From positions 70,484 to 134,483 of the forward strand of contig JAPPHT010000070.1 of assembly GCA_028874795.1 (NCBI GenBank): a stretch of DNA of 64,000 nt, written 5' to 3'. Each line of letters starts with the position of its first letter. Position 1 is the first letter of the stretch. Position numbers and translations under genes: made by a program. Below the pieces are notes generated by a model that worked only from the letters and a program-made list of their open reading frames with translations, was not told the origin of the DNA and made no database searches. The DNA comes from Chloroflexota bacterium (GTDB lineage: Bacteria > Chloroflexota > Dehalococcoidia > Lucifugimonadales > Australimonadaceae). Below are positions 28,487 to 57,905 of this stretch, in pieces.

Positions 28487-29284
<798 letters not shown>

Positions 29285-53782: not shown

Positions 53783-54221
53783 CCCCCCGCTCCGTCGGGC
53801 CATTTCCCGCTCTCGGCAGATGCCTGGTCCCTTCCCCATCTCGGCAGGTGTCTGGTCCCTTCTCCCTCTCGGCAGGTGCCTGGTCCCTTCCCCTCTCGGC
53901 AGGCGCCTGGTCCCTTCCCCCTCGATGGGGGAAGGTTAGGATGGGGGTGAACGGAGTGCGGGAGTGGGGCCGGACGGGTGCCTTACTCCCCTCTCCCCAG
54001 GGGAGAGGGGCTGGGGGTGAGGGTTGATTGTCATGCTCAGCGGAGCGCAGCGGAGTCCCGCGCTTCAGCGCGCAACATCCTCTCAGGATGCCTGGTCCCC
54101 TCTCCTGAGGGAGAGGGTTAGAGCCTGCCCCGCACTTGGTGCGGGGTGAGGGCCCTGCGTGCGGCGGGGTGGAGTTCGACGGTTATGGGTTACCCAGGGC
54201 TTCTTGCAGGTGAACGCTGAC
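53783..54221. other. 439-bp repeat-only spacer before the sortase gene
   Basis: It contains four 27-28-bp tandem repeats (53811-53920), a family D palindrome (53909-53951), a family C copy (53986-54027), a family B-like copy (54027-54086) and a second family C copy (54098-54151). I see no gene in it. Confidence 0.75.
53811..53920 (+). repeat. Four tandem copies of a 28-bp unit
   Basis: TCTCGGCAGGTGCCTGGTCC followed by CTTCCCC is repeated with starts at 53811, 53839, 53867 and 53894 and a few substitutions. The copies are contiguous without unique spacers, so this is a tandem array that ends by running into the family D palindrome. Confidence 0.85.
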
Positions 54222-55010
54222 ATGGGAGGGCGCGCGTCCGTCCTTGGCGTTGCGTTGCTCGCATGCGGCGCGCTCCTGCTCGCCGCCGCCGGCGCCTACT
54301 ACGCTTACGGCGTCTTCGCCGAACGCGGGTTGGGGGACCTCACCGTGGTCGTCCCGGACCCCTCCGAAACGCTGCCGGTGATGCCGACCGCAGCCCAGGA
54401 AGGGCCGTCGCCCGCATCGCAGCAGCTCTACCCCGGATCGCTCATGCCCGCACGGCAGTGGGCGGACCCGCGCGGAGCGATCTCGCTCGGCGTGCCGGAC
54501 CTGGATGGCTTCGTGCCGCTCAGCAACGAAGGGCGGCCTCACGTCGCCGGGATCGTCGGCGGGGCGGAGCGCATAGCCATCCCGGAACTGAACGTCGACG
54601 CCGAGGTCGAGGAGCTCAGCATCATCAACCTCGCGTCGAGCGCGGAGTACGAGACTCCCGCATTCACCGTGGGGCACATCCCTACGACGCCCAATCCCGG
54701 TTCCGCGGGCAACGGATGGTACTTCGGCCACCTGGAGAACCCCCTGCAGGGCGAGGGCAACGTCTTCCTGCGCCTGCCTGAGATCGCAGACCTGCTGCGC
54801 AACGGCGACGACGTGCACGTCATCCTCACTGCCGGTGGGCGCGATTACCTCTACCTCGTGAACGAGACGAGCACCGTGCACGCCGACGATCTCACGCTCT
54901 ATCCGTCGGACGACGCCCGCGTCTCGCTCGTCACCTGCTTCCCGCGCCTCAAGTACGACCACCGCCTCATCGTTACCGCGCAGCTCGTCGCCTTCAGGGA
55001 CCTTGCATAG
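54222..55010 (+). CDS. Class D/E-like sortase
   Basis: A 262-residue membrane-anchored sortase. An N-terminal transmembrane helix (residues 6-28) is followed by a linker and the catalytic domain (about 115-262). Active-site residues are His in VGHIPTTPN or FGHLENP, Cys in SLVTCFPRL and Arg in DHRLIV, an arrangement of His-Cys-Arg. Sortases join LPXTG-type proteins to the cell wall, or polymerise pilins, outside the membrane; this suggests a single-membrane cell. No LPXTG substrate is evident in this window. The adjacent predicted selenoproteins are lipoproteins, not sortase substrates. The ribosome-binding site is weak (AGGTGA). Confidence 0.86.
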   Translation: MGGRASVLGVALLACGALLLAAAGAYYAYGVFAERGLGDLTVVVPDPSETLPVMPTAAQEGPSPASQQLYPGSLMPARQWADPRGAISLGVPDLDGFVPLSNEGRPHVAGIVGGAERIAIPELNVDAEVEELSIINLASSAEYETPAFTVGHIPTTPNPGSAGNGWYFGHLENPLQGEGNVFLRLPEIADLLRNGDDVHVILTAGGRDYLYLVNETSTVHADDLTLYPSDDARVSLVTCFPRLKYDHRLIVTAQLVAFRDLA

Positions 55011-55362
55011 CCCCCGGGAGCGGATGGGGGTGACCCGGCTGGGGAGGGTGGAGGGGCGCCCCGTCGTCATTCCCGCCTCCGCGGGAATCTCGCAGCCTCG
55101 GGGGAGGAGGGTGCTGCCTGGTCCCCTCTCCCTACAAGGGGAGAGGGTTAGAGAGAGGGTACTGCGCGGGGTGGCGCGGAGTTTGTCATGCTGAGCGCAG
55201 CGGAGCGGAGTCGAAGCATCTCTCGGGTGCTGTTGGTCCCTTCCCCCTTGATGGGGGGAAGGCTAGGATGGGAGTGAATAAGCGGGATTGGGGCCACGCG
55301 GTACGGTCATGCGGGCCGCCTTCAGAGGACCTCCACGCTGGGATGCGCGTACAATAGACGCG
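55011..55362. other. 352-bp repeat-rich spacer upstream of the first selenoprotein gene
   Basis: It contains family A (55068-55092), family C (55128-55158), family B (55194-55227) and family D (55235-55280) palindromes in a row, all facing the same way, followed by the promoter of the selenoprotein gene. I see no gene in it. Confidence 0.75.
55350..55355 (+). promoter_or_regulatory. -10 box of the first selenoprotein gene, leaderless
   Basis: TACAAT (55350-55355) with a 7-bp gap to the ATG at 55363 and no ribosome-binding site. The -35 is not clear. The spacing matches the other leaderless genes of the window. Confidence 0.5.
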
Positions 55363-56244
55363 ATGGGTACGGCACCGGGATCAGGCCTCCTCCCGCGAGT
55401 GGCAGCCGCCGCGCTGTTCGTGCTCGCGCTCGCCGCCTGCGCCAGCAACGAGGTAACCGTCGTCACCGAGCCCCCGGCGGACACGCCAACCCCCGTCCCG
55501 ACGAACACGCCCGCGCCGGTCCCGACCGACACCCCCGTCCCGCTCCCCACCAGCACGCCCACGCCTGAGCCCCTGCCTACGGATACGCCCGCTCCTGACT
55601 TGCTCGGCGACCAGCCCGCCATTGAGGGCGTGATTGCGCAGCCAACCCCAACGCCGGAGCCGCAGCCCACTCCTACGCCAACCCCCGCGCCAACGCCGAC
55701 GAACACGCCCACGACGGGAATGCTCCCGGCCGACACGCCGACGCCTGCCCCCACGGACACCCCGACTCCTGAGCCCGCTCCTGCGCCGCCTGCCGGCTGG
55801 CGCACCGACCTCGCCACCGGTCCCAACCCCGGCGACCGCGCGGTCGACGCATCGCTGACCCTCCCGGACGGCTCCACCGCCACCATCGAGTCCGCCGCCG
55901 GAGGCCGGGCCGTCATCCTCTACTTCTTCGCCACGTGGTGACCGTCCTGTAACGCCGAGTTACGGACGTTAACCAGCCTCTACAGCGACTACAGCAGCGA
56001 TGTCGAAGTCATTGCTGTCGCCTTCAACGAGGACGCTTCCAGGCTAGGCGACCACGCCGCACAGCGGGGCTACGCCGGCGTGTTCGCAGAGGGCCCCGCG
56101 TCGCTCGTCCGCGACTACAACGTCCGGCAGCAGTCGTCGTGGGTTTCCATCGGGCGCGACGGCGCCATCGTCAACAGGCGCGGCTACGGATCGGACGGCG
56201 CCTCGTTCTGGCGCGGCGTCCTGGACGCCCTCCGCGCCTCGTAA
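55363..56244 (+). CDS. Predicted selenocysteine-containing thioredoxin-like lipoprotein 1
   Basis: A 293-residue protein if TGA at 55939 is read as selenocysteine. Residues 1-25 are a lipoprotein signal (LFVLALAACASN). Residues 30-145 form a Pro/Thr-rich linker of PTPTP type. Residues 150-293 are a TlpA-like thioredoxin domain: GWRTDLATG, LTLPDGSTATIESAAGG, then YFFATW-U-PSC at residue 193, followed by ELRTLTSLYSDYSSDVEV and SIGRDGAIV. Without readthrough the protein would end exactly at the redox motif. The cis-Pro usual in thioredoxins is absent (RQQSSWVSIG). A SECIS-like hairpin follows the TGA. A second gene shows the same arrangement. The role is probably thiol redox on the outer face of the membrane. 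Confidence 0.82.
55939..55968 (+). promoter_or_regulatory. Candidate SECIS element with in-frame TGA (Sec codon), protein 1
   Basis: TGA (55939-55941) is followed at once by CGTCC (55943-55947), a bulged T (55948), GTAAC (55949-55953), loop GCCGA (55954-55958), GTTAC (55959-55963) and GGACG (55964-55968). The stem is 10 bp with a single bulged U in the 5' arm and a loop beginning with G. The loop lies 16 nt from the U of UGA. This follows the layout of bacterial SECIS elements recognised by SelB, such as that of E. coli fdhF, though the loop sequence differs. Confidence 0.65.
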
Positions 56245-56275
56245 CCCTCCCCCACCGTTCCCATGAAAGTGGCAT

Positions 56276-56385
56276 CCGTCATTCCCGCACAGGCGGGAAT
56301 CCAGAGTGACCGGGCAGGTCACGCGGCGGGGCTGGTGGGAGTGGGAGTGGTCATGCCGAGCAGAGCACAGTCCGCGCTTCAGCGC
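56276..56385 (+). repeat. 110-bp direct repeat, copy 1
   Basis: It begins with a family A palindrome and includes a CAGGTCAC palindrome and GCCGAGCAGAGCACAGTCCG. It is about 95% identical to 56581-56690. Confidence 0.85.
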
Positions 56386-56580
56386 GCAGAGAGCAGGAAC
56401 CTCGCAACCCGGCGGGGGGAGAGTGGAAGAGGCTTGTCATGTTGAGCGAAGCCAGAGGCGAAGCCGATGGCGTAGTCGAAGCATCTCTCGGGAGGCGCAC
56501 CAGCCCACTCGTTTCATTCCCTTACACGGCCCGACAGGGTCGCGGGCCATCCCTGCGAAGAGAAGGAACCTCGCCCCCGT

Positions 56581-56690
56581 CCGTCGTTCCCGCACAGGCG
56601 GGAATCCAGAGTGACCGGGCAGGTCACACGGTGGGGCTGCTGGGAGTGGGAGTGGTCATGCCGAGCAGAGCACAGTCCGCGCTTCATCGC
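56581..56690 (+). repeat. 110-bp direct repeat, copy 2
   Basis: A second copy of the 110-bp unit in the same orientation, 305 bp after the first. Confidence 0.85.
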
Positions 56691-56893
56691 ACGCGGGCAG
56701 CAGAACCTCGCCTTCCATCTCTCCTGAGGGAGAGAGCCTGCCCTGAGCTTGCCGAACGGGTCGACGCGCTTGCGCGGCGGGTGAGGGCCCTTGGGGGTGG
56801 TGCTGGGCATGGCGTCTCCTTTGTCCCCCCCCCCCCGCCCGCATTGACACCCCATCCCTGGCAAGCCTAGCCTTACCCGGAGCGTTCCCCAGC

Positions 56894-57547
56894 ATGACCA
56901 CGCGCGCCGCATCCGCATCTCGCCTCGCAAGGGCAGGGGCAGCCCTGCTCCTCGTCCTGTTCACGATCGCCGCGTGCGGCTCGGACCCCACCCCGACGCC
57001 CACACCGCAGCCCACGCCAACGGCGACGCCGGAGCCGGCCCCCACTGCCGATCCGGGACCGGCCGCCACGACGGAAACCGAGACGGACACCATCGCCCCG
57101 GCAGGCTGGCGCACCGATGTCGAGGTCGGCGCAGGCCACGGCGACCGCGCCGCCAACGCCTCGCTGACGCTCGTGGACGGCTCCTCCGCCACGCTCGAAT
57201 CCGTGGCCGCGGGGCGCGGTGTCCTCCTCTACTTCTTCGCCACGTGGTGACCGACCTGCCGCGGCGAGGCTCGCACGCTGGACACCCTCTACGACGACCA
57301 CAAGGACGATGTCGCGTTCGTCTTCGTCGCTTGGTCGGACCCGCTCGCCAGTCTCAACGAGTACGCCCAGGAGAATGGCTACGACTGGGTCTTCGCCGAG
57401 GCCGGCCCGGACACGCCGCGCGACTTCAACATCCGCTCCCAGGCGACCTACGTCGGCATCGGGCGCGACGGCGCCATCGTTGCCAGCAGCGCCGGCGGCT
57501 CCGGCAAGGACTGGCCAAGCATCCTCGAGCAACTCAGCGCCACCTAG
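56894..57547 (+). CDS. Predicted selenocysteine-containing thioredoxin-like lipoprotein 2
   Basis: A 217-residue paralogue of the previous gene, with in-frame TGA at 57248 (residue 119). It has a lipoprotein signal (LFTIAACGSD), a short Pro/Thr linker (residues 30-65), then GWRTDVEVG and SLTLVDGSSATLESVAAG, YFFATW-U-PTC, and a thioredoxin-like tail (RTLDTLYDDHKDDVAFVFV, IGRDGAIVASS) ending at TAG. The DNA around the Sec codon is identical over 27 bp to copy 1, including the preceding FATW codons, while flanking sequence has diverged. The linker is about 80 residues shorter. The cis-Pro position is again not Pro (SQATYVGIG). No clear ribosome-binding site is seen; the -10-like TAGCCT is 23 bp upstream of the ATG. 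Confidence 0.8.
57248..57273 (+). promoter_or_regulatory. Candidate SECIS element with in-frame TGA (Sec codon), protein 2
   Basis: After TGA (57248-57250), CGA (57252-57254) pairs with TCG (57271-57273) and CCT (57255-57257) with AGG (57267-57269), with C57270 bulged and a G-first 9-nt loop (57258-57266) that can partly pair inside. The fold is less SECIS-like than in copy 1 because it is so GC-rich that alternatives exist. Confidence 0.45.
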
Positions 57548-57905
57548 ATTGGCCCGTCATTCCCGCGAAAGCGGGAATCCAGGGTGCGCGGGCAGCGCAC
57601 GGAATCCTCTCGGGGCGCTCCCCGTCCTCCTCCCCATTTTCGTTCCCTTACACGACCCGACAGGGCCCCGTCGTTCGTGCGTATGCAGGAACCTCGCCCC
57701 TTGTCCCCCTCGCCCCCTGGGAGAGAGCCTGCCCTGAGCTTGCCGAACGGGGCAACGCGCTTTAGCGCGTGGGTGAGGGTTGGTGGTGGGGAGTGGAGGG
57801 CTAGTTATACTGAGCGCGGCAGAGGCGCGGGTTGGCGAGCGCGGCGCATCTGCGATAGCATCCCTCGCAGCAGGACGCGGCCGGCGCGGGCCGCAGGGAG
57901 GCTCT
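57548..57905. other. 358-bp repeat-rich spacer between selenoprotein 2 and the orphan coxS
   Basis: It contains a family A palindrome with an attached second palindrome (57555-57600), a module shared with the previous spacer (about 57645), a family C relative (57710-57779) and a degenerate family B copy (near 57803-57872). I see no gene in it. Confidence 0.7.

Follow-up and report, generated by a model that had tools for sequence, protein, structure and literature searches.

The analyzed window, a DNA stretch of 64,000 nucleotides, carries two tandem genes on its plus strand that each contain an in-frame UGA codon. Gene 1 (positions 55363 to 56244, with ATG at 55363 as its probable start codon) encodes 293 amino acids if the UGA is read through as selenocysteine (Sec, U). 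The translation has a lipoprotein-like signal (LALAACAS), a Pro/Thr-rich linker, and a redoxin/TlpA-ResA-type domain with the motif YFFATW-U-PSC. Gene 2 (56894 to 57547, 217 amino acids) is a paralogue of the same design, with the motif YFFATW-U-PTC and a domain that is 52% identical to that of gene 1. Alignments to homologues predict Sec at both UGA codons, which are located at 55939 to 55941 in gene 1, where Sec would occupy the first position of a UxxC motif, and at 57248 to 57250 in gene 2. Directly upstream of gene 1, on the same strand, is a gene of the sortase family (54159 to 55010; Pfam PF04203, 2e−17). A sortase gene adjoins the Sec-redoxin gene in other genera of the family as well (loci L029 to L031, L033 to L035, L038, and L042; tblastn, 58 to 83% identity), and these matches suggest that the two form a conserved neighborhood. 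The intergenic regions around both genes (55040 to 55330, 56250 to 56840, and 57550 to 57800) hold short recurring GC-rich pieces (ttcccgc..aggcgggaat and tgagcgaagc..tcgaagcatctctcggg) that look like dispersed repeats.

In Pfam, both domains fall under Redoxin/AhpC-TSA (for gene 1, PF08534 at 4e−11 and PF00578 at 9e−11), and their nearest matches in profile searches are thiol-disulfide oxidoreductases of the ResA/TlpA type. Among the best profile matches are the ResA structures 4nmu and 3c71 (4e−14 to 6e−14) and the ResA model NF002854. The window proteins differ from ResA/TlpA/DsbE in scoring below the curated cutoffs and in having Sec in place of the first Cys. In the alignment, the UGA is in line with the first Cys of the CxxC motif of ResA/TlpA relatives and with the catalytic Cys of Cys homologues. 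We suggest that both products are membrane-anchored, extracytoplasmic thiol-disulfide oxidoreductases with Sec for the first Cys of CxxC. Both SECIS elements in bacteria and selenoproteins of the UxxC redoxin type have been described before (PMC13188914, PMC2398784, PMC1088965). The window proteins share the redoxin/TlpA fold and Sec at the first CxxC position with the UxxC redoxin, Prx-like, and Trx-like 1 selenoprotein families (PF08534, PF00578, COG0526). They differ from these families in their lipoprotein-like design with a Pro/Thr linker, and also in their tandem copies (up to three) and their wide spread through one order, both of which are lineage-specific here. In the literature on selenoproteins in SAR202, Chloroflexota, or Dehalococcoidia, we found no description of this family or set.

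The source genome (3.33 Mb, 97% complete) has selA, selB, selC, and selD together, including a full-length selB (341 bits), a tRNA-Sec of 94 nucleotides with a UCA anticodon (69.9 bits), selA (508 bits), and a selD (389 bits) with its own in-frame UGA. Within the order, selA is present in about 86 of the 93 genomes with the UGA form of the redoxin, versus 199 of 247 genomes overall (counts read from tables). Seven of the 93 UGA-bearing genomes had no detected selA (G013, G032, G152, G162, G212, G215, and G244), and these are mostly incomplete assemblies; selA was also not detectable in G245 and G150, two genomes in which a Cys form is the best match. A variant tRNA might read the UGA as Cys or Trp rather than as Sec. 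UGA-decoding Cys tRNAs are described in other bacteria, and one homologue has TGG at the site. However, the presence of tRNA-Sec, selA, selB, and selD argues against such a reading, under which a SECIS-type hairpin after the UGA would also be needless. On this evidence we rejected decoding as Cys or Trp, which we regard as extremely unlikely. The homologue in question (L112; site at 230, minus strand, G249:C282) is the sole TGG form; its SECIS hairpin is intact (6 of 6 pairs) and its tandem neighbor retains TGA. Its TGG is either a sequencing error or a very recent loss of Sec.

The order yielded 147 homologous sites. TGA is present at 134 of them, spread over about 93 genomes, and 127 of the TGA sites are distinct over 42 nucleotides. 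Outside the order, a 400-genome sample of the phylum yielded only two UGA forms. A contig search with patterns that have Cys at the Sec position returned Cys homologues only, mostly distant.

Downstream of the UGA codon, the homologues share a short hairpin. With the U of UGA numbered 0, positions 13 to 18 pair with 24 to 29, or with 24 to 26 and 28 to 30 around a bulged position 27, and positions 19 to 23 form the loop. The hairpin begins 9 to 10 nucleotides past the UGA, and its loop, (A)G[U/G]N(N), lies 16 nucleotides past it. In gene 1, the hairpin spans 55951 to 55970 of the plus strand (AACG-CCG / AGUUA / CGG-CGUU, with A55966 bulged between the two segments of the 3′ arm), and one further pair, U55950-A55971, is possible. 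Its apical loop AGUUA (55958 to 55962) carries G55959 and U55960; in the homologue counts, position 20 is G in 127 of 127 sequences, followed by U in 120 and by G in 7. In gene 2, the hairpin lies at 57261 to 57278 of the plus strand (GCG-GCGA / GGC / UCGC-(A)-CGC). Relative to copy 1, its fourth pair has undergone a double change from C-G to G-C, and its first pair is G-C in place of A-U. The conserved hairpin has no bulge in its 5′ arm; where there is a bulge, it is an A, U, or C on the 3′ side.

All six core pairs are formed in 116 of the 127 homologues and five pairs in the remaining 11, when the better of the two registers is taken. Synonymous-codon resampling of the same genes, in which the amino acids were kept, gave on average 5 of 127 full stems and at most 15 in 1,000 draws. 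Constraint on the loop bases acts at the nucleotide level, as codon choice there shows: UUR encodes 104 of 104 Leu residues (background, 16%), UUU encodes 14 of 15 Phe (background, 24%), and GAG encodes 117 of 117 Glu (background, 63%). Conservation is owed partly to the protein (CRAELR), and the codon test controls for that part. We assigned the sequences to a bulged and an unbulged class by best fit. The unbulged class has double changes at all six pairs (68 cells, a number reached in 0 of 500 shuffles), and when the partner is shifted by one column, pairing falls from 98% to 26 to 34%. Pairing extends to 99.6% of cells in the bulged class, where three pairs show double changes (16 cells; 0 of 500 shuffles); among these is the C-G to G-C swap by which copies 1 and 2 differ. 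On a tree from which the hairpin codons were left out, we counted 49 changes between standard pairs. Of 21 well-supported independent 5′ changes, about 17 were followed by the 3′ base, which never moved in the opposite direction; this result was pooled over pairs, as individual pairs have too few changes for significance alone.

These results also bear on whether the genes are pseudogenes, or the UGA a real stop, with a hairpin conserved merely through its amino acids. For most genes a UGA does signal termination, and the CxAELRxL motif is conserved. However, the downstream coding sequence is kept at 134 UGA sites, the codon-preserving null is rejected, and the Sec machinery is complete. In addition, the 12 Cys forms have at most 4 of the 6 core pairs and none has the conserved hairpin, although several encode similar amino acids. 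We consequently rejected the UGA as a real stop, an explanation that has next to no chance of being correct.

Covariance models recovered the same element. The model trained on the bulged class with all sequences of the window's family left out (R2) ranked copy 1 first (28.4 bits) and copy 2 second (26.7 bits) in the 64-kb window, with the next match at 14.7 bits. In the whole genome, where 150 of 7,025 candidates were scored, these two hairpins were the only matches at E up to 1. The model of the unbulged class (R1) recovered the hairpin at the same place in two homologues that do not belong to the order (36.4 and 30.4 bits), with the match starting one base past the UGA, and gave copy 1 only 11.9 bits because of its bulge. 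Scores of both models partly reflect sequence that is conserved for the sake of the protein. The best R1 match in the window (28735 to 28764, minus strand) is antisense to an apparent enoyl-CoA hydratase gene and was taken as chance.

The published consensus model of the bacterial SECIS (bSECIS) has a G[U/G] loop 16 to 37 nucleotides from the UGA, an upper stem of 4 to 16 bp, and a minimum free energy at or below −7.5 kcal/mol (PMC13188914). The conserved hairpin resembles this model in its location directly after an in-frame UGA inside coding sequence, its stem of 6 to 8 bp (six core pairs, 7 to 8 in copy 1), its spacing of 16 nucleotides (55942 to 55957 in copy 1), and the compensatory changes across relatives. 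The loop agrees as well, having five nucleotides (or three closed by A-U) and a G at the first or second position, then U or G. It differs in that the energy of copy 1 is borderline (−6.5 kcal/mol with 7 bp or −7.8 with 8 bp, versus −9.0 for copy 2), although 104 of the 127 homologues are at or below −7.5 kcal/mol. Rfam gave no SECIS match, either over the whole window at the gathering threshold or over 55900 to 56020 at E up to 5. Specific to this lineage are the AGUUN loop, the lack of a U bulge in the 5′ arm, and the optional bulged nucleotide in the 3′ arm. In bacterial Sec insertion, SelB carries Sec-tRNA(Sec) and contacts the SECIS loop at the outer edge of the ribosome. In Escherichia coli fdhF, the minimal SECIS stem-loop comprises nucleotides 15 to 31, 11 nucleotides from the UGA (PMC8659212, PMC11431864). 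The conserved hairpin lies within 1 to 2 nucleotides of that position (nucleotides 14 to 31 from the U of UGA) and also has GU in its loop; in contrast, it lacks the bulged U (U17) on the 5′ side of the fdhF upper stem.

We propose that the twin genes encode Sec redoxins and that the conserved hairpin is the SECIS for SelB-driven Sec insertion, a prediction that is very probably correct. The mRNA after each UGA would fold into the short hairpin, with its loop 16 nucleotides past the UGA, and SelB with Sec-tRNA(Sec) would bind the loop and bring Sec to the ribosome while it pauses at this codon.

The preliminary description had likewise placed a SECIS right after the Sec codon of gene 1, within the coding sequence. 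An element at this place is strongly supported, but it is not the hairpin that was drawn. The latter spans 55943 to 55968 of the plus strand and agrees with the sequence letter for letter: the arms 55943 to 55947 and 55949 to 55953 pair with 55964 to 55968 and 55959 to 55963 in 10 bp, U55948 is bulged, and the five-nucleotide loop GCCGA (55954 to 55958) starts with G. Folding and homologue comparison show that it is mutually exclusive with the conserved hairpin and is not itself conserved. Its ten pairs are all formed in 2 of the 127 distinct UGA homologues, which represent one sequence type common to three species of the window's genus; it is absent from copy 2 and from every other homologue among the 127 sites. 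On the alignments, 58 to 64% of cells pair, and covariation is at or below the shuffle mean. Covariation had been proposed as the check, with a retained TGA but no conserved stem-loop as the refuting outcome; that outcome is what we observed for the drawn stem, while compensatory changes support the hairpin shifted to 55951 to 55970. The reported distance of 16 nucleotides to the loop had counted the U of UGA as 1, whereas 12 nucleotides (55942 to 55953) separate the UGA and the loop. Copy 2 was said to fold differently, which is true of the drawn fold, but the conserved hairpin is present in both copies. The bulged U, which had been seen as part of the SECIS, is outside the conserved element.

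The 10-bp hairpin (CGUCC-U-GUAAC / GCCGA / GUUAC-GGACG) might still serve copy 1 as its SECIS, as an element of the E. coli-like bulged-U type that emerged in this genus in place of the ancestral element. It is the most stable fold of the isolated RNA (−13.1 versus −6.5 kcal/mol for the conserved hairpin) and dominates the computed ensemble of the 57 nucleotides after the UGA (pair probabilities of about 0.9). The 30-mer that contains it folds at −12.4 kcal/mol (z = −3.7; 1 of 200 shuffles as good). One U is bulged, the loop opens with G, and the hairpin is identical in three species that diverge at synonymous sites elsewhere: across 36 nucleotides at this place, 0 or 1 of 8 synonymous sites differ, versus 22 to 35% just upstream and 8 to 28% downstream. 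The conserved hairpin alone could be a sufficient explanation of this low variation. When amino acids and local codon usage are preserved, the ten pairs would arise by chance with P of about 0.0013; with codons 4 onward fixed, as these are constrained by the conserved hairpin, P is about 0.045 from the first three codons alone, and we therefore regard the stem as largely coincidental. The 10-bp hairpin has a 5′ bulged U as in fdhF, but this U is about 7 nucleotides closer to the UGA, and the loop at 12 nucleotides falls short of the 16 to 37 of the bSECIS model (PMC13188914). The 10-bp hairpin is missing in all other homologues and in copy 2, and the conserved hairpin retains all its pairs in this sequence, among them the A-U pair that stands in for G-C. 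Moreover, its lower stem would be within the seat of the ribosome during UGA decoding. We rejected it as a functional element; that it is the SECIS of copy 1 is highly improbable.

A ribosome with UGA in its A site should cover roughly the first 11 nucleotides after the UGA. This cover would remove the lower 5′ arm of the 10-bp stem and open the copy 1 hairpin, and the remaining RNA may then refold as the conserved hairpin, which is the best computed fold of RNA from 55950 on (−7.8 kcal/mol). The nested, exclusive hairpins could also mean that, for copy 1 in this genus, the stable 10-bp hairpin hides the SECIS and acts as a gate. Such a role is unlikely; if real, it would expose the SelB site only once the ribosome reaches the UGA, or tie read-through to ribosome traffic.

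The locus shows clearly that the thermodynamically best fold behind a Sec codon can differ from the element kept by evolution, and single-sequence folding, one criterion of SECIS finders, would give the wrong structure here. The 127 covarying sites, at which amino acids, codons, and RNA pairs can all be read, define a precise consensus (UGA, 10 nucleotides, six pairs, loop AGUUN), and SelB recognition without a bulged U becomes directly testable.

Other UGA-containing genes were observed in the source genome and the order. In the source genome, selD (L024; G000:C89:24806-25726) has its UGA near the start (ATCAG-U-AGK) and a downstream hairpin with the loop GGC. A third UxxC thioredoxin-like gene with a UGA (L021; G000:C43:6961-7191; IEFGSVT-U-PPC) has a hairpin in the same register as the conserved SECIS, with the loop GUC. 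A fragment in a genome of another family (L069; G156:C83:6544-6828) carries a hairpin nearly identical to that of copy 2 of the window's genus and represents either transfer or assembly contamination. At L154 (G175:C53:21667-23910), three UGA-containing redoxin genes lie in tandem.
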